Source of the DNA: Anaerolineae bacterium
GTDB lineage: Bacteria; Chloroflexota; Anaerolineae; JAFGEY01
DNA: 11,072 bases
Reading direction: 5' to 3'
Assembly (NCBI GenBank): GCA_016931365.1
Contig: JAFGEY010000093.1
Span: forward strand, 1-11,072
Shown one piece after another: positions 3,849-11,072 of the stretch. Within the stretch, counting starts at the first letter, position 1; each line of letters opens with the position of its first letter. The notes under the pieces are model-generated. The model searched no databases and was not told the DNA's origin. It saw only the letters and a program-made list of their open reading frames with translations. The position numbers and the translations under genes were made by a program.

Positions 3849-3877
3849 TTGCCCTTCCCGGCGAGTTGGGGTACAAT
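3849..3877 (+). promoter_or_regulatory. Promoter of the Mo/W island
   Basis: TTGCCC (3849-3854) and TACAAT (3872-3877) are separated by 17 bp. Each is a four- or five-of-six match to consensus. Predicted transcription begins near 3884 and would yield a 5' leader of about 250 nt before the ATG at 4137, long enough for the structured element and terminator described separately. Confidence 0.5.
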
Positions 3878-3944
3878 CTGGGCCATAATTGAATGATGCT
3901 TCTCCGACCCAACTTTTCTAACAGTGCTGACAGCTTATGGATGT

Positions 3945-4060
3945 TGGGCGATAGGGTGGCGCTGGAAACGGCGTCGCCTCCCGCGTGGGTTTCTGCAAGC
4001 CCCTGGAAAGGAGAACGCACTGCGATACAGGCACGATGCATGATCGTGCTTGATTTTGCG
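3945..4060 (+). ncRNA. Candidate riboswitch leader (Moco/Tuco-like, class tentative)
   Basis: The leader between promoter and terminator folds into several local stems. A long arm has GCGT (3971-3974) pairing with ACGC (4015-4018), CTCC (3978-3981) with GGAG (4010-4013), and an inner GGG/CCC around a TTTCTGCAAG loop. A second hairpin has GCACGAT (4031-4037) pairing with ATCGTGC (4043-4049) around a 5-nt loop. CTGGAAA occurs twice (near 3962 and 4003), as conserved unpaired stretches often do. It sits upstream of a Mo/W uptake operon and is followed by an intrinsic terminator. In E. coli the Moco RNA precedes moaA, and shorter variants are proposed to sense the tungsten cofactor. Assignment to that class rests on context and my partial memory of the consensus. 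A different metabolite or a plain attenuator is possible. Confidence 0.45.
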
Positions 4061-4065
4061 TTGTG

Positions 4066-4113
4066 CGGCGGCTCCTTGAGAGGCAAGATTTTCTCAGAGC
4101 CGCCGTTTTTATT
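4066..4113 (+). terminator. Intrinsic terminator/attenuator ahead of the Mo/W island
   Basis: CGGCGGCTC (4066-4074) pairs perfectly with GAGCCGCCG (4097-4105). After a 2-nt bulge, TGAGA (4077-4081) pairs with TCTCA (4092-4096). TTTTTATTT follows at 4106-4113. This is a textbook intrinsic terminator ending about 24 nt before the first start codon of the island, with no gene between it and the promoter at 3849. It therefore most likely acts as a conditional attenuator controlled by the preceding leader fold. Confidence 0.85.
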
Positions 4114-4136
4114 TCTATACTGACCAGGAGGGGATC

Positions 4137-5603
4137 ATGAACAAACACCGCATTTTGAATGGCATCTGGGTATTGGCGTTGGTCGTCGCGCTGGCGGCCT
4201 GCGTCCAACAATCGCCGACGGCAACGGCTGTTCCGCCGACGGCGACGTCCGTGCCGCCAACGGCAACGACTGTCCCGCCAACGGCGACGCCCGCAGCGCC
4301 CGCGCTGGAAATCGTCGGGGATGAGGGTTCCAAGTCGTTTACACTGGAAGAGTTGATGGCGCTGCCTGTCACCGAAGGCCAGGGTGGGATCAAGTCGAGC
4401 ACCGGCAAGATCACCGTGCCCGAACTGTTTACCGGCGTCTCGCTCAAAGACCTGGTCGCTGCACTGGGCGCGTTTGACGAGAACATGGGCGTTAACGTGG
4501 TGGCCGAGGACGGCTACGGGATTACCTTTTCTTACGATCAAGTGATGAACGGCGCGTTTATTGCCTATGACCCCGGCACCGGCGACGAGATCAAGTCGCC
4601 CGATCCGCTGACCGCGATTTTGGCCTACGCGCGCAACGGCGAGCCGCTTGACCCCAAGCAGGACGGCACACTGCGGCTGGTCGTCGTCAGCGCCAAGAAC
4701 AATCAGGTGACCGACGGTCACTGGTCGGTCAAGTGGGTGAACAAGCTGGAAGTCAAGGCGCTGGGACAAGAGTGGACGCTGCACCTGGAAGGGACCATCG
4801 TCGAAGAGATGGATCGCGCTACCTTTGAATCGGGCGCTTCGCCCAACTGCCACGGGGCGACCTGGACCGACGACCACGCGCAGCGTTGGGTGGGCATCCC
4901 GCTGTGGCTGCTGGTCGGCCGCGTCGATGATGAGATCTCGCACAACGGCCCGGCCTTCAACGAGGTCCTGGCCGATGCCGGCTATACAGTCGATGTGATC
5001 GCCGCCGATGGGTACACCGTCTCGTTCGACAGCGCGCGGATCAAGCGCAATGACAAGATCATCGTCGCCTACAAGGTCAACGACAACCCGCTGCCCGAAC
5101 AGTATTTCCCGCTGCGGCTGGTCGGTGAGGACCTGGAAAAGAAAGAAATGGCCGGTATGATCGCTCAGATCGTCGTCCACGTCGAGGGTATCGCCATATC
5201 GACGCCGACGCCAGAACCGACTCCTCCGCCCGCGCCCGTGACCGTCGAGGGCGATCTGGTCATCGTCGGCCTGGTCGATCAGCCGCTTGGTCTGATCGAG
5301 GAGACCCTGCGTGCGATGGAGGTGGTCAAAATCACTGCCGAGCATCCCAAGAAGGGACAGGAAGAATACGAAGGCGTGCGCCTGAATGCCCTGCTCGATC
5401 AGGCCGGCGTGCAGGAGAGCGCGACCAAGCTGGTCGTCACCGCCGCCGATGGGTTCGTAGTCGAGGTTTTTGTGGCCGAAGTGCGCGACTGCGCCGACTG
5501 CCTGCTTGCCTTTACCGAGACACCGGGCAAGTTCAAGCTGGTGATGCCCGGCCTGCCCAGCAGTGTGTGGGCCAAGGACGTGGTGCAGATCAAAGTCCAG
5601 TGA
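4137..5603 (+). CDS. Lipoprotein with three tandem molybdopterin-oxidoreductase (SUOX)-like domains
   Basis: A predicted lipid-anchored extracytoplasmic protein of 488 residues that opens the Mo/W island. The signal peptide ends in lipobox LAAC with Cys22, then a 4 x 7-residue Pro-Thr-Ala linker (27-54). Three domains resemble the oxidoreductase molybdopterin-binding (PF00174/SUOX) fold. Domain 1 (about 57-208) has FTGVSLKDLV, EDGYGITFS and WSVKWVNKLEV. Domain 2 (about 213-350) has PNCHGATW, WVGIPLWLL, ADGYTVSF and FPLRLVG. A second TP-rich linker (355-368) precedes domain 3 (about 368-488), with YEGVRLNALL, ADGF and a CADC motif (C452, C455). Only domain 2 keeps a Cys (C238) near where SUOX enzymes bind molybdenum. 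The ribosome site AGGAGG is well placed. The role is inferred from context: Mo/W-cofactor or oxyanion handling, or a redox role. Domain 3 closely resembles the TupA tail. Confidence 0.8.
   Translation: MNKHRILNGIWVLALVVALAACVQQSPTATAVPPTATSVPPTATTVPPTATPAAPALEIVGDEGSKSFTLEELMALPVTEGQGGIKSSTGKITVPELFTGVSLKDLVAALGAFDENMGVNVVAEDGYGITFSYDQVMNGAFIAYDPGTGDEIKSPDPLTAILAYARNGEPLDPKQDGTLRLVVVSAKNNQVTDGHWSVKWVNKLEVKALGQEWTLHLEGTIVEEMDRATFESGASPNCHGATWTDDHAQRWVGIPLWLLVGRVDDEISHNGPAFNEVLADAGYTVDVIAADGYTVSFDSARIKRNDKIIVAYKVNDNPLPEQYFPLRLVGEDLEKKEMAGMIAQIVVHVEGIAISTPTPEPTPPPAPVTVEGDLVIVGLVDQPLGLIEETLRAMEVVKITAEHPKKGQEEYEGVRLNALLDQAGVQESATKLVVTAADGFVVEVFVAEVRDCADCLLAFTETPGKFKLVMPGLPSSVWAKDVVQIKVQ
4215..4298 (+). 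repeat. Four 21-bp tandem repeats encoding a Pro-Thr-Ala linker
   Basis: Four in-frame 21-bp units encode PTATAVP, PTATSVP, PTATTVP and PTATPAA, immediately after the lipidated Cys of the SUOX-like lipoprotein. Such linkers are common in Chloroflexota lipoproteins and hold the folded domain off the membrane. The units differ mainly at third positions and at one variable residue. Copy number may vary between strains. Confidence 0.85.
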
Positions 5604-5607
5604 TGGG

Positions 5608-5658
5608 GGAGCCGTATGGCGTACTACGTAAACCCGGACGCAGTACGCCATACGCTCC
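5608..5658 (+). repeat. Long intercistronic hairpin between the SUOX-like lipoprotein gene and wtpA
   Basis: CGTATGGCGTACT (5613-5625) is the exact reverse complement of AGTACGCCATACG (5642-5654). GGAG/CTCC extends the stem outward past a bulged C (5612). CGT/ACG extends it inward past one mismatch, giving about 20 bp around an 8-nt loop. It starts 5 nt after the stop codon and ends 15 nt before the wtpA start. No U-tract follows, so it looks like a transcript-stabilising or processing hairpin, or a REP-type element, rather than a terminator. It may also mask wtpA translation, since wtpA has no clear Shine-Dalgarno. Confidence 0.75.
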
Positions 5659-5673
5659 ATTTCAAAATAATCC

Positions 5674-6789
5674 ATGAAATTTAAACGCCTTTTGTGCTTA
5701 TACTTGATTTTCTTGCTGTCCGGCTGTGCCCGCTCGGTGGCACTCACACCCGCGTCGACGGCAGCCGATACGCCCATTCCACCGGCGCAGCGCGTGCCGC
5801 TGGTGGTCTTTGCCGCCGGCAGCCTGATCGTTCCCTTTGACGCGCTGGAAGCTGTCTTTGAAGCGCGCTATCCACACATCGATGTGCGTGCCGAGTATCA
5901 CGGCAGCATCCAGGTGATCCGCCACGCCACCGAACTGCACGAAGCGATTGACGTGGTCGCCACCGCCGACGCGTCGCTGATCCCGATGTTAATGTATGTG
6001 ACAAATAACCCCGATACCGACCAGCCCTATGCCGATTGGTACGTTCGTTTTGCCTCCAACCGCCTGGCTATAGCTTTTACTCCGCAGAGCCAGCGTGCGG
6101 GCGAGATCAGCGCCGATAACTGGTACGATATCTTGGCCGACCCCAACGTGCGCGTGGGGTTGTCCGACCCGCGCTTCGACGCCCTGGGCTACCGCGCCCT
6201 GATGCTCTTTGCCCTGGCGCAAGAGGAGGACGAGCGCCCAACCCTGTTTGCAGACATGTTTGCCGGTCGCTTTGCCACACCGGTGACGCTCTTTTGGGAC
6301 GACGACCTGGGGATCGTCACCGTGCCCGAGATCGTCGAGACCCGCCCGGAAACCGGCCTGATCATGCGCGGGGCGAGCATCCAGTTGATCGCCCTGCTCC
6401 AGTCCGGCGACATCGATTATGCGTTCGAGTACGAGTCGGTGATCCGCCAGCACGGGCTGGAGATGCTGCCTCTGCCCGACGCGCTCAACCTGGGTGCGGA
6501 GGGGAGGGAAGAAGCGTACAGTCGCGTACAGGTGAACCTGGATTTCCGTCGTTTTGCGACGATCAAGCCCCAGTTTCGCGGCGAGCGGATCGGCTATGGG
6601 ATCACCATCCCGTCCAGCGCCCCGCACCCGGAAGAGGCGGCGCTGTTCATCGCCTTTTTGTTGGGGCCGGAGGGCCGCGCGGTGATGGAGGCCAACCATC
6701 ACCTCCTGTTCGATCCGCCGATCGGCGACGGCTATGCGCGCATCCCGGCCCAAGTGCAGGCGCTTTGCGCACCCGGAGAGACGCCGTGA
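5674..6789 (+). CDS. wtpA: WtpA-type tungstate/molybdate ABC transporter binding lipoprotein
   Basis: The extracytoplasmic receptor of a WtpABC importer, capturing tungstate or molybdate and delivering it to the adjacent permease. The 371-residue protein has a lipobox LLSGC (Cys18) and a short linker. WtpA hallmarks follow: FAAGSL (46-51), HGS (76-78), DVVATADASLIPMLM (93-107), PYADWYVRFASNRL (118-131), GLSDPRFDALGYR (162-174) and DIDYAFEYESV (246-256). The end of its reading frame overlaps wtpB as GTGA, indicating translational coupling. No convincing Shine-Dalgarno precedes the ATG, and the AT-rich stretch after the hairpin at 5608-5658 may serve instead. By my alignment to archaeal WtpA/ModA, one octahedral-ligand Glu appears replaced by Ser235. 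Family assignment is firm; tungstate versus molybdate preference is not readable. Confidence 0.92.
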   Translation: MKFKRLLCLYLIFLLSGCARSVALTPASTAADTPIPPAQRVPLVVFAAGSLIVPFDALEAVFEARYPHIDVRAEYHGSIQVIRHATELHEAIDVVATADASLIPMLMYVTNNPDTDQPYADWYVRFASNRLAIAFTPQSQRAGEISADNWYDILADPNVRVGLSDPRFDALGYRALMLFALAQEEDERPTLFADMFAGRFATPVTLFWDDDLGIVTVPEIVETRPETGLIMRGASIQLIALLQSGDIDYAFEYESVIRQHGLEMLPLPDALNLGAEGREEAYSRVQVNLDFRRFATIKPQFRGERIGYGITIPSSAPHPEEAALFIAFLLGPEGRAVMEANHHLLFDPPIGDGYARIPAQVQALCAPGETP

Positions 6790-7568
6790 ATCGTCGCGGG
6801 TTCGACCTGGTTTTGAGCGTCCTCGGCGGGCTGCTGGTGCTGTTTGTGCTCGTACCGCTGGCCGGCATCCTGCTCACGCTCAGCCCGCACCAGTTCTGGC
6901 TGGCCCTGGTCGACCCGGATGTGCTGCGCTCGGTTGGACTGACCGTCCTGGCGGCGGCGATTGCTACCCTTTTAGCTCTGCTCACCGGCATTCCTCTGGC
7001 TTATTTGCTGGCGCGGCGACATTTTGCGGGGAAAAGACTGGTTGAGGCCTTGATCGACCTGCCGATCGTGCTGCCGCACACTGCTGCCGGGATCGCGCTG
7101 CTGATGGTGTGGGGGCGGCGCGGCCTGGTGGGGCGCTGGCTGGCTCCATTGGGCATAGTTTTCACCGACAATCTGGGCGGGATCGTGGTCGGGATGCTTT
7201 TTGTCAGTCTGCCCTTCCTGGTTGATATGAGCCGCACGGCGTTTGCGCTGATCGACCCCGAGTTGGAGCGGGTGGCCTTGATCGATGGAGCGACGCCCTG
7301 GCAGGCGTTCTGGCTGGTGTCGCTGCCACTGGCCTGGCGCGGCGTTTTCGGCGGCGCGCTGACCATGTGGGCGCGCGGGATGAGCGAGTTCGGCGCGGTG
7401 GTGATTCTGGCCTATCACCCCAAGATCGCGCCGGTTCTGGTTTACGAGCGGTTTCAGGGTTTTGGTCTGGACGCGGCGCAGCCGGTGGCGGTGCTGATCA
7501 TCCTGGCCGCGCTGATCGCCTTTGGCCTGTTGCGGCTGGTGCTGCAAAAGCAGGCCCGGGCAGATTGA
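6786..7568 (+). CDS. wtpB: WtpB/ModB-type tungstate/molybdate ABC transporter permease
   Basis: The inner-membrane channel subunit for WtpA, 260 residues from GTG at 6786. I chose this start because GGAGAG lies 5 nt upstream and the codon overlaps the wtpA stop as GTGA. The same frame is open further upstream only because it is a shadow of wtpA. Hydrophobic spans fall near 8-30, 48-76, 85-112, 130-152, 186-208 and 232-254. The cytoplasmic EAA loop, which docks the ATPase, is ELERVALIDGA with W172 and SLPL (159-182). DLPIVLPHTAAGIALL (91-106) is characteristic of ModB/WtpB. No wtpC or modC gene with a C-terminal TOBE domain follows; the next genes are tupB and tupC, so this permease probably uses TupC or a distant ATPase. 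Confidence 0.93.
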   Translation: MNRRGFDLVLSVLGGLLVLFVLVPLAGILLTLSPHQFWLALVDPDVLRSVGLTVLAAAIATLLALLTGIPLAYLLARRHFAGKRLVEALIDLPIVLPHTAAGIALLMVWGRRGLVGRWLAPLGIVFTDNLGGIVVGMLFVSLPFLVDMSRTAFALIDPELERVALIDGATPWQAFWLVSLPLAWRGVFGGALTMWARGMSEFGAVVILAYHPKIAPVLVYERFQGFGLDAAQPVAVLIILAALIAFGLLRLVLQKQARAD

Positions 7569-7592
7569 GGGAGGAATATCATCGACGAGATG
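7569..7592 (+). promoter_or_regulatory. Oddly spaced ribosome site of tupB
   Basis: A strong GGGAGG Shine-Dalgarno (7569-7574) lies 15 nt before the only nearby ATG (7590), too far for efficient initiation. At normal spacing the in-frame codons are ATC (7578) and ATC (7581). Either initiation uses a rare ATC, which would add up to four residues, or ATG is used with long spacing and coupling to wtpB termination at 7566-7568. Confidence 0.4.
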
Positions 7593-8294
7593 CTGCGCGG
7601 CCTGATCAAGGCCATCCAACTGATCCTTCAAAGAGACCCGGTGCTGTTCGAGATAGTGGTTCTGTCGTTGCATGTGTCGGGCGTCGCGCTGTTGTTCAGC
7701 ACCTTGATCGGTATCCCGATCGGCGCACTGTTGGGGTTGAACCGTTTTCTGGGCCGCAAGCTGGTGGTGGCCTTGCTCTACACGGGTATGGGATTTCCGC
7801 CGGTGGTGGTGGGATTGTTCGTCTATCTGTTTCTGTCGCGCAGCGGGCCGCTGGGCCAACTCAACTTGCCTCTGATCCCCGAGCTGTTTACACCGGGAGC
7901 GATGATCGTCGCCCAGAGCATTATTTCGTTTCCGTTGGTGGCTGGCTTTACAATGGCCGCGGTGATGGGCGTCGATCCTCAGCTCCGCCAGCAGGTGCTC
8001 GCTCTGGGTGCGACGGGGTGGCAGGCGGCGTGGACGGTGCTGGTCGAGGCGCGGGTGGGGGTGGTCGTCTCGATCATTGCCGGGTTTGGCAGCATCATCT
8101 CCGAGGTGGGTGCGGTGATGCTGGTCGGCGGCAACATCGAAGGGCGCACGCGGGTGCTGACCACGGCCATCGTGCTGGAGACGCGCAAGGGGGCGTTTGA
8201 TCTGGCGATGGCGCTCGGCTTGATTTTGCTCGGCCTGTCTTTTTTGACCAACCTGGCCATGCTGTATTTGCAGGGGGTAGGGGGTAAGGAATAA
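7590..8294 (+). CDS. tupB: TupB tungstate ABC transporter permease
   Basis: A six-span inner-membrane permease of the tungstate-specific TupABC importer, 234 residues from ATG 7590 (up to 238 if an upstream ATC is used). TupB landmarks: the N-terminal helix ending in QRDPVLFEIVVLSL (14-27), GIPIGALLGLNRF (41-53), MGFPPVVVGLFVYLFLSRSGPLG (67-89), an EAA-type loop LRQQVLALGATGWQAAW (132-148), and the conserved tail GNIEGRTRVLTTAI with ETRKG (181-201). Family length is about 220-240, so it is intact. It starts 21 nt after wtpB and ends 2 nt before tupC, so all three are one transcription unit. Its partner receptor, tupA, is downstream of tupC rather than in the more usual first position. Confidence 0.93.
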   Translation: MLRGLIKAIQLILQRDPVLFEIVVLSLHVSGVALLFSTLIGIPIGALLGLNRFLGRKLVVALLYTGMGFPPVVVGLFVYLFLSRSGPLGQLNLPLIPELFTPGAMIVAQSIISFPLVAGFTMAAVMGVDPQLRQQVLALGATGWQAAWTVLVEARVGVVVSIIAGFGSIISEVGAVMLVGGNIEGRTRVLTTAIVLETRKGAFDLAMALGLILLGLSFLTNLAMLYLQGVGGKE

Positions 8295-8296
8295 GG

Positions 8297-9028
8297 GTGG
8301 AGAGTCGGGTCATTTATCAATTATCTGGAATAACAAAAATATATCAGGATCGGCGGGTACTGGACATTGAGTCGCTCGACATCTACCGGGGCGAAATCCT
8401 GGCCCTGGTCGGGCCGAGCGGCGCGGGCAAGAGCACCTTGCTGCGCCTGCTCAACTTTGTCGAGTCACCCACGGCGGGCTGCATTCGCTTCCTGGATGCC
8501 GATCTGGATGGCGGCGCGGTTCCGCTGGCGCTTCGCCGTCGGGTGACCACCGTTTTTCAGCGGCCAATCCTGCTCGACCGCAGCGTGGAGGCCAATGTGC
8601 GCTATGGGCTGCGTCTGCGCGGGCAATCTAACGGGGGACGGCAGGTGTCGGATGCGCTCAATCAGGTGGGGATGATCGGCCTGGCCCGCCAGCGGGCGCG
8701 CACGCTTTCCGGCGGCGAGATGCAGCGCGTGTCGCTGGCGCGGGCGATGGTCTTGCAGCCCGACGTGCTGCTGCTCGACGAGCCGACGGCCAACCTCGAC
8801 CCGTACAACGTGGGGTTGATCGAGGAAATCATCGGCACACTGAACCGGGAACGCGGGACGACGCTGGTGCTGGTCACGCATAATGTCTTTCAGGCGCGGC
8901 GGCTGGCGCATCGCGCGGGCTTGCTCCTCGACGGACGGCTGATCGAAGTGGACGAGCGGGAGCACTTTTTCGAGCAGCCGCAAGATACGCGCACGGCAGC
9001 TTTTGTGCGCGGTGAAATGGTGTACTGA
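8297..9028 (+). CDS. tupC: TupC tungstate ABC transporter ATP-binding protein
   Basis: The cytoplasmic ATPase driving import, 243 residues, starting with GTG 2 nt after the tupB stop and preceded by AAGGA. All nucleotide-binding motifs are intact: Walker A GPSGAGKST (39-47), Q-loop Gln88 in VFQRP, signature LSGGE (137-141), Walker B VLLLDE (157-162), D-loop NLD (166-168) and H-loop His195. The region RSVEANVRYGLRLRG (95-109), which contacts the permease, fits TupC. The protein ends soon after the core, with no TOBE domain, so it is not ModC and lacks its C-terminal oxyanion sensor. As the only ATPase in the island, it may serve both TupB and WtpB; that sharing is inference. Confidence 0.93.
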   Translation: MESRVIYQLSGITKIYQDRRVLDIESLDIYRGEILALVGPSGAGKSTLLRLLNFVESPTAGCIRFLDADLDGGAVPLALRRRVTTVFQRPILLDRSVEANVRYGLRLRGQSNGGRQVSDALNQVGMIGLARQRARTLSGGEMQRVSLARAMVLQPDVLLLDEPTANLDPYNVGLIEEIIGTLNRERGTTLVLVTHNVFQARRLAHRAGLLLDGRLIEVDEREHFFEQPQDTRTAAFVRGEMVY

Positions 9029-9088
9029 CGGCTGTCGCAGATCGGGTATTGCGGGGGCCGATTTTCACATTCTTTTAAGGAGAAGAAC

Positions 9089-10366
9089 ATGAAACAGTGG
9101 ATCTATCGAATGATGTTTGTGTTGATGATTGCTGGTCTCATCGCCGGATGCACGACGCCCGCGCCAACAGCAACGATGGCGGTCGTCGAATCGCCGACGG
9201 CAACGCCTGTTCAAGCCGCAGGCGAAGAAAAGCGGCTGATCCTGGCTACTACCACCAGCACGCAGGACTCGGGGCTGCTCGACTACCTGCTGCCCGATTT
9301 CAAGGCCCAGTACGGGGTCGAGGTGGATGTGGTGGCGGTGGGCAGCGGGCAGGCTATCGCCCTGGGGCAGGATGGCAACGCCGACGTGCTGCTGGTACAC
9401 TCGCGGGCCAGTGAAGACCAGTTTATGGCCGACGGGCACGGCACGCGCCGCGAAGACGTGATGTACAACGATTTCATTGTCGTCGGCCCAGAGTCCGACC
9501 CGGCGGGGATCAAAGGGCTGACCGCTGCCGGAGCCTTCAAAAAGATGGCCGAAGCCCAATCGCCGTTTATCTCGCGCGGCGACGAATCGGGCACGCACAG
9601 CAAGGAAAAAGCAGTCTGGAAGGCCGCCGGCATTGAGCCGGCCGGTGACTGGTATATCTCTGCCGGGCAAGGCATGGGCGCTGTGTTGACCATGGCCGAC
9701 GAACAGCAGGCTTATACGCTCAGTGACCGCGCCACCTACTTGGCGCGCACGCTGGAGGGAACCTCGCTCAAAGTTCTGGTCGAAGGCGACCCGATCCTGT
9801 TCAACCCCTATGGCGTGATCGCCGTCAACCCGGCCAAGAGCGCCAAAATCAACGCCGATCTGGCGGCCCAGTTCATCGACTGGCTGGTTTCGCTGCCAAC
9901 ACAGGAAAAGATTGTCCAGTTTGGCGTGGACAAGTTTGGCGCGCCGCTCTTTACGCCCGATTCAACCGCCTGGCGCGAGGCGCATCCGGCAGCCGAACAG
10001 CCCGCCGGCGGCGACGTGGCGCTCAAGATCACCGGACTGGTCGAGCAGGAGATGGGCTGGAGCGAGGATCAGGTCAAGGCGATGGAGACGATGGAAGCCC
10101 AATCGACCAACAAGGCGGGCGAGGTGAGCACCTACACCGGCGTGTCGATCAAGGCGCTGCTCGACTTGGCCAAACCCAAGTCCGACGCGCAAACGGTCGT
10201 TTTCGTCGCCGATGACGGCTTTACCGGCGAAGTGCCTCTGGCCGATGTGCTCGTCTGCGCCGACTGCATCGTCTCTTTCCGCGATAAGGGCGGGTTTAGC
10301 ACCGTTCTGCCCGGCTTCCCCGGCAACGTGCAGGTCAAGGGCGTGATCGAAATTCAGGTCAAGTAG
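9089..10366 (+). CDS. tupA: TupA tungstate-binding lipoprotein with C-terminal SUOX-like CADC domain
   Basis: A tungstate receptor fused to an extra domain, 425 residues. The lipobox is LIAGC (Cys21) with a short Pro-Thr-Ala linker. Residues about 48-292 form a complete TupA: LATTTSTQDSGLLDYLLP (52-69, with the oxyanion-binding TTTS), VGSGQAIALGQDGNADVLLVHS (84-105), MYNDFIVVGP (125-134), FISRGDESGTHSKE (160-173) and TLSDRATYL (210-218). Normal TupA ends about there. After an Ala/Pro-rich hinge (298-308) comes a SUOX-like domain (309-425) with STYTGVSIKALLDLA, ADDGF, CADC (C390, C393) and a final IEIQVK. It resembles domain 3 of the lipoprotein at 4137-5603. AAGGAG lies 6 nt before the ATG. 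The tail may sense or hand over oxyanion, or use its Cys pair for redox; this is inferred. Confidence 0.93.
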   Translation: MKQWIYRMMFVLMIAGLIAGCTTPAPTATMAVVESPTATPVQAAGEEKRLILATTTSTQDSGLLDYLLPDFKAQYGVEVDVVAVGSGQAIALGQDGNADVLLVHSRASEDQFMADGHGTRREDVMYNDFIVVGPESDPAGIKGLTAAGAFKKMAEAQSPFISRGDESGTHSKEKAVWKAAGIEPAGDWYISAGQGMGAVLTMADEQQAYTLSDRATYLARTLEGTSLKVLVEGDPILFNPYGVIAVNPAKSAKINADLAAQFIDWLVSLPTQEKIVQFGVDKFGAPLFTPDSTAWREAHPAAEQPAGGDVALKITGLVEQEMGWSEDQVKAMETMEAQSTNKAGEVSTYTGVSIKALLDLAKPKSDAQTVVFVADDGFTGEVPLADVLVCADCIVSFRDKGGFSTVLPGFPGNVQVKGVIEIQVK

Positions 10367-10540: not shown

Positions 10541-11072
10541 ATGACGCTCAAACGTGACCATAGTGGCCGTCTGCACATCGACACGCCGTTGATGGCCGAG
10601 TCGTTGATGGATAAATCGCTGCTGGCCGGCACGGAGATCGAGTCCGTGTTTCGCCTGCTGCCCGAATTGTCAGTGGTCAAATTGGGCGGGCAGAGCATCA
10701 TCGATCGCGGGGCCAAGGTTGTCTTGCCGTTGATCAACGAGATCGTCGCCGCGCGGGCCGACCATCCGCTGCTGATTATGACCGGCGGCGGCACGCGCAG
10801 CCGTCACGCCTACAGCATCGCCCTCGACCTGGGTATGCCCACCGGCGTGCTGGCCAAGCTGGGGGCCAGCATCAGCGAGCAAAACGCGCTGATGATCTCG
10901 CTGCTCCTGGCCCCGCATGGCGGGATCAAGATCGGGCAAGACGACATGGTCAAGCTGCCCGCCTATCTGGCGCTGGGATCGATCCCGGTGATGCACGCCA
11001 TGCCGCCGTACAGCCTGTGGGAAGAACCGCCGGAGCAGGGGCGCATCCCGCCGCACCGCACCGACAGCGGCG
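10541..11072 (+). CDS. mosB: Molybdenum storage protein (MoSto) subunit, beta-like, truncated by window edge
   Basis: A cytoplasmic amino-acid-kinase-fold protein that, in Azotobacter MoSto, forms a cage storing polyoxomolybdate (or tungstate) clusters in an ATP-dependent way. The frame is open from ATG 10541 (GGAGGTG ribosome site 4 nt upstream) to the right edge, 177 codons of an expected 270 or so. Family marks: VVKLGGQSIIDRG (45-57), the glycine-rich nucleotide site LLIMTGGGTRSRHAYSIALDLGMPTG (75-100), SISEQNA, then MPPYSLW (about 155-161) and GRIPPHRTDSG near the end. MPPYSLW and GGQSIIDRG resemble the MosB subunit; the N-terminus is more alpha-like. Compared with UMP or aspartate kinases, the PPY and PPHRTDSG segments are diagnostic. 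Adjacency to Tup/Wtp genes supports Mo/W storage. Whether a second subunit follows is unknown. Confidence 0.88.
   Translation, partial: MTLKRDHSGRLHIDTPLMAESLMDKSLLAGTEIESVFRLLPELSVVKLGGQSIIDRGAKVVLPLINEIVAARADHPLLIMTGGGTRSRHAYSIALDLGMPTGVLAKLGASISEQNALMISLLLAPHGGIKIGQDDMVKLPAYLALGSIPVMHAMPPYSLWEEPPEQGRIPPHRTDSG

Follow-up and report, generated by a model that had tools for sequence, protein, structure and literature searches.

A SUOX-fold domain with a cysteine pair on tungstate-uptake lipoproteins of Anaerolineae: a candidate pterin receptor

Why do two different lipoproteins encoded at one tungstate-uptake locus end in the same domain? The question is raised by a stretch of 11,072 nucleotides (the window) from an Anaerolineae bacterium (GenBank assembly GCA_016931365.1, contig JAFGEY010000093.1), in which a lipoprotein with three domains of the sulfite oxidase (SUOX) fold and a TupA-like tungstate-binding lipoprotein share a C-terminal tail with the motif CADC, here called the CADC domain. 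The domain is very probably a non-catalytic module of tungsten (W) and molybdenum (Mo) acquisition. More narrowly, it is on balance probably a cofactor-free ligand-capture module of the PruR kind, most likely binding pyranopterin; for a pterin as the ligand the chances are judged to be about even.

Two homologous tails of the SUOX fold

The original prediction held that the two tails are homologous with CADC at matched positions, and this proved right, coordinates included. In a single BLASTP comparison 45 of 115 residues were identical (39%, one gap, E 1e-25) and the two CADC motifs were aligned with each other, while the local alignment score was 201 against 28.8 ± 5.3 (maximum 54) in 2000 shuffles. 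Conversely, pairwise scores of the lipoprotein tail with SUOX domains 1 and 2 of its own chain were 36 and 38, below the 51 and 48 that shuffles reached. This similarity is undetectable, and the tail is therefore nearer to the TupA tail than to its neighbour domains. The predicted duplication was likewise borne out, and it is old, since the TupA tail of the window shares 91% identity with the closest orthologous tail and 39% with its operon partner; a recent duplication within the window operon is thereby ruled out. At another locus (L046) the copies on TupA and on the lipoprotein share 84% identity, which marks a recent duplication, whereas at L100 and L101 the two copies share 29-33% and the TupA copy is 86% identical to TupA tails elsewhere. 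Because these patterns differ, the domain must have been transferred more than once.

Both tails belong to the SUOX fold, as found from Pfam PF00174 coverage and from fold comparison with Foldseek, whose matches were re-examined with VIA-align (families outside the listed matches may also fit). The lipoprotein scored 81.8 bits against PF00174 (E 5.5e-23, cut-off 24) in three stretches, and its AlphaFold model (predicted local distance difference test, pLDDT, 83; predicted template modelling score, pTM, 0.49) matched sulfite dehydrogenase and PruR, which supports the assignment of its domains. With the lipoprotein as a single query sequence against the Protein Data Bank (PDB), no SUOX match came up. 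The TupA tail (residues 311-419) scored 30.7 bits against the same cut-off. A wholly new family is ruled out by these results, so the proposal of an undescribed domain was not upheld, all the more as PruR is already a solved member of the fold free of molybdenum cofactor (Moco).

The best sequence matches to the CADC domain are the SUOX enzymes SorA (PDB 2blf), SoxC (2xts) and YedY (1xdq), which have the same fold. Unlike them, the CADC domain lacks the Mo-ligand cysteine, which we take to lie in the N-terminal half of the enzyme domain, has no twin-arginine translocation (Tat) motif and has a shorter stretch before the last strand. Two protein searches returned 438 and 182 proteins, and the best 120 of each (240 proteins) formed the family set. 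An iterated profile on this set gave 439 near-complete domains, of which 318 have at least one cysteine at the two motif columns and 121 have neither; domains that had lost both would sit among the 121. Both cysteines are present in 303 of the 318. Fifteen have one, and as 11 of these retain the second, it is, to judge from the alignment, the more constrained of the pair. Every terminal domain of the 240 proteins keeps at least one (225 both, 15 one). The pair had been expected to be invariant: it is highly conserved within the subfamily, but not invariant, and it is absent in the wider riboswitch-linked relatives described below. The motif reads CADC in 168 cases and otherwise CTDC, CENC, CDNC or others. 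A cysteine outside the motif occurs in 8 of the 303 domains, always at alignment columns 51-77. DG[YF], a proline and a lysine are also conserved, with Tyr or Phe at the DGY column in 297 of 303.

A lipobox was found in 206 of the 240 homologues. None of these 206 has a Tat consensus (the other 34 were outside the scan), and an RR pair falls within the first 35 residues in 15. Exported Moco proteins fold first and then use Tat. Thus, as had been proposed, the CADC domain appears from its sequence to form a distinct lipoprotein-borne subfamily, separate from catalytic SUOX molybdoenzymes in both the Mo-ligand cysteine and the export signal.

Among known systems a close parallel is PruR, which binds pterin in the periplasm as part of the PruR-DcpA pathway (PDB 7kos, 7rkb). 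Both PruR and the CADC domain have the SUOX fold without the Mo-ligand cysteine, are exported, and carry an aromatic residue at the NDY/DGY position. The Tyr/Phe of DGY aligns with NDY of PruR and, going by chain numbering, should correspond to Tyr104, a pterin contact. PruR, however, is a separate protein that works with DcpA in signalling in Proteobacteria, whereas the CADC domain is fused to or beside importers in W/Mo-linked clusters and has a CxxC motif. No DcpA/DTB partner gene occurs among the named genes of the window, where alone it was looked for.

Linkage to importers and to the cofactor riboswitch

Genomic linkage was examined in a scan of genome contigs with the full-length three-domain lipoprotein as query, so that the resulting 48 loci are tied to this type; one of them (L019) belongs to a cultured organism, Levilinea saccharolytica KIBI-1. 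In 40 of 41 three-domain loci (Chloroflexota by title) wtpA follows the gene, the exception being at a contig edge; the 41 omit L048, whose contig ends in domain 1, and L040-L045, which have no CADC domain. These six loci, in five Actinomycetota and Atribacteria assemblies, encode domains 1-2 only and are also beside wtpA. In a second comparison tup or wtp genes were found within the fetched stretch at 18 of the 25 best CADC loci and at none of the 30 best ordinary PF00174 loci (Fisher p 3e-9), the controls being best-scoring matches rather than a random sample and the 25 omitting L053-L056 (hand-picked genomes or second matches) and L080-L084 (under 95 bits). The predicted enrichment beside wtp and tup was thus supported. 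Its extension to MoSto held in fewer cases, a MoSto-like kinase gene being near in 5 of the 41 three-domain loci.

Among 249 genomes of the class of Levilinea, which we take to be Anaerolineae, 36 have a profile match at E 1e-10. At E 1e-20 the domain is present in 26 of these 249 and is rare outside the class, with 4 of 301 phylum-drawn genomes and 1 of 246 Actinomycetota, this being the starting genome. The domain can be attached to TupA on the C-terminal side, in one or two copies, or on the N-terminal side; elsewhere it forms the third domain of the wtpA-linked lipoprotein or stands next to an ordinary SUOX-fold partner. The window TupA body and the neighbouring WtpA belong to known receptor families; TupA occurs in 131 of the 249 class genomes, with a SUOX-fold match in the same frame in 14 (coordinates compared by eye). 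In one locus (L098:7638-10199, also L072) the three-domain lipoprotein and WtpA share a single open frame of 889 amino acids from stop to stop, a possible fusion. Beside TupA, an energy-coupling factor (ECF) set was found at 5 of 7 CADC-tailed loci (among L085-L104) and at none of 20 tail-less loci (several on short contigs), which rejects ECF linkage as a general trait of TupA loci. CADC tup operons with a second ECF set (PF09819, CbiQ and a dual ATPase) were seen at L101:13041-17034, L005, L007, L012, L100, L103 and L104; they also encode a 167-amino-acid protein, SUOX-like by eye, and in most cases a TiaS-like TCKD protein.

The window operon is preceded by a feature that the original prediction did not include, a riboswitch of family RF01055 with a terminator (3890-4114). 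The aptamer, in which the P3 columns are deleted in the alignment, ends 107 nucleotides before the lipoprotein start codon. As it is followed by a strong hairpin and U-run (4067-4114), it is likely a transcriptional OFF switch. The RNA fold of 4030-4125 gave -43.7 kcal/mol (z -7.2); a consensus terminator scanner missed this hairpin and gave another, at 4028-4052. P3 is absent in the window RNA and in all ten RF01055 alignments inspected, out of 15 matches, nine of the ten coming from ECF loci. The accessible part of an earlier survey associates P3-lacking Moco RNAs with tungsten-cofactor genes and lists two such RNAs of S. wolfei, which precede 'sulphite oxidase' genes, as possible exceptions; it makes no mention there of apo-SUOX receptors or ECF fusions (Regulski et al., 2008; PMC2408646). 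These S. wolfei genes may themselves encode apo-SUOX receptors.

RF01055 was found in 110 of the 249 class genomes. It lies on the same strand, no more than 2 kb upstream, for at least 29 of 78 profile matches (at least 17 of 54 contigs) and for none of 81 ordinary PF00174 rows; these are lower bounds from 78 listed profile rows, 150 listed RF01055 rows and the first 81 ordinary rows, and the Fisher test sets contigs (17/54) against rows (0/81). Loci L216-L230 were picked with knowledge of the riboswitch list and were not used as tests. The aptamer leads stand-alone CADC genes (L088, L091), tup operons (L103, L104), one other gene of the three-domain type (G200:C46) and one of nine tail-less TupA loci (L167). 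Linkage as a general PF00174 trait is rejected by the two sets of controls, both made up of best-scoring ordinary matches (0/30 for tup/wtp, 0/81 for RF01055).

Further searches revealed SUOX-fold domains on two more importer types. Nine loci (L097:4999-8232, L096, L216-L219, L223, L227, L228) encode PF01497-class receptors, similar to BtuF and FhuD, with one to four such domains (detected with our own probe; Pfam was run on one), and RF01055 is upstream in at least seven of the nine contigs. A radical S-adenosylmethionine gene is near the fusion in L097. The other type is a fusion to PF09819 ECF S components. An S component with two SUOX-fold domains (ECF-SUOX) is present in 13 of the 249 class genomes, and RF01055 lies 58-616 nucleotides upstream of the match in all 13 loci. 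ECF importers under cofactor riboswitches are known for thiamine, folate and others. ECF-SUOX likewise combines S, T and A components behind a riboswitch; what sets it apart is the class of the switch, RF01055, and the two SUOX-fold domains on its S component. A database search with this fusion gave 837 homologues at E 1e-10, and the 120 homologues listed all match it over 89% or more of its length, under names that include thiamin/hydroxymethylpyrimidine permease and dimethyl sulfoxide/trimethylamine N-oxide (DMSO/TMAO) reductase. In both fusions CxxC is incomplete: receptor-fused domains have one Cys, Ser or another residue, and ECF-fused domains have none. DG[YF] is retained in 41 of 48 rows of these wider relatives. 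Therefore the shared feature is the SUOX-fold pocket rather than the Cys pair, and CxxC as a shared active site is ruled out.

Cofactor synthesis genes were then compared among the ECF-SUOX carriers. The AOR family (PF01314) is present in all 13 genomes, with 1 to 13 matches each. MoaA above the cut-off (284) was found in only four, four more having radical-SAM matches at 76-83 bits, compared with MoaA at E 1e-50 in 204 of the 236 other genomes (p 1.7e-5). MoaC, searched for in the 13 genomes, shows the same distribution: the four genomes with MoaA have it and the other nine do not. As moaA and moaC sit on separate contigs in two of those four, a single assembly gap would not explain their joint absence.

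Organization of the window operon

The genes from 4137 to 10366 are all on the + strand with intergenic gaps of -4 to 70 nucleotides, which makes a single operon plausible (Table 1). WtpAB is followed by TupB and TupC without a WtpC of its own (6786-9028), and the single ATPase may serve both importers. The TupB-like permease scored 153 bits against the TupB model NF041773, under its cut-off of 320. The TupA body (residues 45-293) scored 232.6 bits against NF041772 (TupA), under the cut-off of 400, and has the solved relatives 3lr1 and 5my5. The kinase-fold protein is presumably the MoSto of the original prediction.

Table 1. Features of the window, with positions, strand and supporting scores
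Feature	Position	Strand	Support
Sigma-70-like promoter match upstream of riboswitch	3849..3877	+	Consensus scan only: 1 found, 0.4 expected
Moco/tungsten-cofactor riboswitch aptamer RF01055, P3 stem missing	3890..4029	+	56.1 bits, gathering 36, E 1.6e-11
Likely intrinsic terminator separating the aptamer from the start codon: strong hairpin, then GTTTTTATTT (4105-4114)	4067..4104	+	
Lipoprotein, 488 amino acids, three SUOX-fold domains (residues about 57-207, 209-352, 371-488)	4137..5603	+	
CADC domain of lipoprotein, last 121 residues	5238..5600	+	
CADC motif of lipoprotein, residues 452-455	5490..5501	+	
WtpA, tungstate-binding protein	5674..6789	+	TIGR03730 262.7 bits, cut-off 242.75
WtpB-like permease	6786..7568	+	NF040839 271.1 bits, under its cut-off 340
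TupB-like permease	7590..8294	+	NF038017 252.8 bits, cut-off 100
ATP-binding cassette (ABC) ATPase in TupC position	8297..9028	+	PF00005 E 6.1e-33
TupA-like tungstate-binding lipoprotein with C-terminal SUOX-fold tail	9089..10366	+	NF041772, PF00174
CADC domain of TupA, last 118 residues	10010..10363	+	
CADC motif of TupA, residues 390-393	10256..10267	+	
Amino-acid-kinase-fold protein, truncated at window end	10541..11072	+	PF00696 E 7.3e-7

The probable ligand and its meaning

The proposed ligand, a pyranopterin or other pterin, is suggested by fold kinship with PruR and with Moco enzymes, by riboswitch regulation, and by the lack of moaA and moaC in most ECF-fusion carriers. Most simply, apo-SUOX-fold domains would act at the surface as receptors for a ligand common to three importer types and to the riboswitch. 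In the window, low tungsten cofactor would let transcription pass the terminator behind the P3-lacking aptamer, and the three-SUOX lipoprotein, WtpAB, TupBC and TupA-CADC would be made. Carried on lipoproteins that probably cross the membrane through Sec, the domain would capture its ligand outside the cytoplasm. The pocket of the fold, marked by Asp-Gly-Tyr/Phe, would most likely bind the pyranopterin part of molybdopterin or of a W/Mo complex and hold it next to the importer on the cell surface. The oxyanion would be taken up by way of TupA or WtpA; in relatives, the pterin or the whole cofactor would enter through a BtuF-like or ECF importer. CxxC is an addition of this subfamily that may provide a stabilising disulfide or an extra thiolate.

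A different role for the Cys pair would make it the working part, ligating tungstate or molybdate, or reducing thio- or poly-oxometalates at the surface before uptake by TupA or WtpA. The fusion to tungstate-binding proteins, the link to wtpA and the co-occurrence of both cysteines, with a third so rarely present, would suit this explanation, but the 15 single-Cys domains and the wider relatives, which keep DG[YF] without the pair, make it unlikely. Slightly less likely again is a spacer or docking module with no small ligand, which would only tether TupA and the lipoprotein to one another, to the cell wall or to the permease. Such a role is in keeping with the repeated shuffling of the domain to either end of TupA in one or two copies; it does not predict the conserved DG[YF], Pro and Lys, and a shared ligand is rather to be expected where three unrelated importer types carry the fold and two of them are mostly under one cofactor riboswitch. 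It is most improbable that the three-domain lipoprotein is a SUOX-family oxidoreductase made together with its own metal importer. PF00174 membership would allow it, and domain 2 has a Cys-His pair (C238-H239), presumably near the place of the SUOX Mo ligand, that is invariant in 16 aligned homologues; the tails without Mo-ligand Cys and the lipoprotein signals without Tat consensus speak against it.

Several observations weigh against the favoured reading of a ligand-capture module. RF01055 was found at none of 22 scanned loci of the three-domain type (at least five with under about 300 nucleotides of upstream DNA) and is also absent at L098, L100 and L101, so its control is not general for the wtpA-linked gene. 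Strong CADC matches (at least 90 bits) have it within 2 kb upstream in at least 3 of 33 cases and within 4 kb in at least 6 of 33, and most of the 29 riboswitch-led matches are wider relatives rather than of the CADC type. Seven of the 25 CADC loci are not beside tup or wtp; these are stand-alone CADC proteins, most of them adjoining an ordinary SUOX-fold partner or domain. Near the C-terminus, TupA-type tails mostly have Gln where others carry a Trp that may correspond to the Trp160 contact of PruR (176 and 125 of 303 domains). The model of TupA has a pLDDT of only 68.8, with low confidence in the body. The moaA/moaC absences may be gaps in genomes whose completeness was not given, and four of the 13 ECF-fusion genomes have both genes. 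The argument from these genes concerns the ECF fusion; the CADC domain itself does not go with loss, as 18 of 25 genomes with a strong match have MoaA. Ligand, transport, hand-over, regulation and the role of the Cys pair are all steps that we infer. Moreover, the PruR site is described as probably not large enough for Moco (PMC13259868); on that ground, a free pterin and the full cofactor are equally possible ligands.

Further proteins were noted near SUOX pairs. At L095:13089-14018 and L092:11625-12554 a 310-amino-acid protein with two CxxCH motifs and stretches that look SUOX-like by eye adjoins such pairs, and next to it is a Type I phosphodiesterase lipoprotein that could split molybdopterin dinucleotide.

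Mo and W cofactors are large and labile, and for this reason are usually assumed to be synthesised at their site of use. A possible extension of the receptor reading, for which the case falls somewhat short of even, is that Anaerolineae salvage the finished W/Mo pyranopterin cofactor or molybdopterin, with the apo-SUOX domains of lipoproteins, TupA, BtuF-like receptors and ECF S components as receptors and ECF-SUOX as importer. Scarcity of tungsten cofactor would turn the importer on, and in nine of the 13 carriers moaA and moaC would have been lost but AOR-family enzymes retained. To our knowledge, ECF-SUOX would then be the first prokaryotic importer of Moco or tungsten cofactor (Tuco). In the literature searched (titles and abstract openings, with subscription papers mostly outside), no report of these fusions or of a bacterial Moco importer was found. 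The CADC domain can be counted as a variant of PruR, and a cofactor importer, if proven, would be a new kind of system. That Moco can be acquired externally is described for dietary Moco in C. elegans, an animal case in which the accessible text names no bacterial importer (PMC9793310).

The pattern of these clusters hints that some bacteria take up finished cofactor rather than synthesise it. With a cofactor-enzyme fold on three unrelated importers, often under the riboswitch of the cofactor itself, bacterial import of Moco or Tuco becomes testable with named genes. Such a role would correct database names such as thiamin permease and DMSO/TMAO reductase, and may account for the 'sulphite oxidase' exceptions in the part of the 2008 riboswitch study cited above (PMC2408646). 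It also offers a route to detect cofactor cross-feeding in anaerobic communities.
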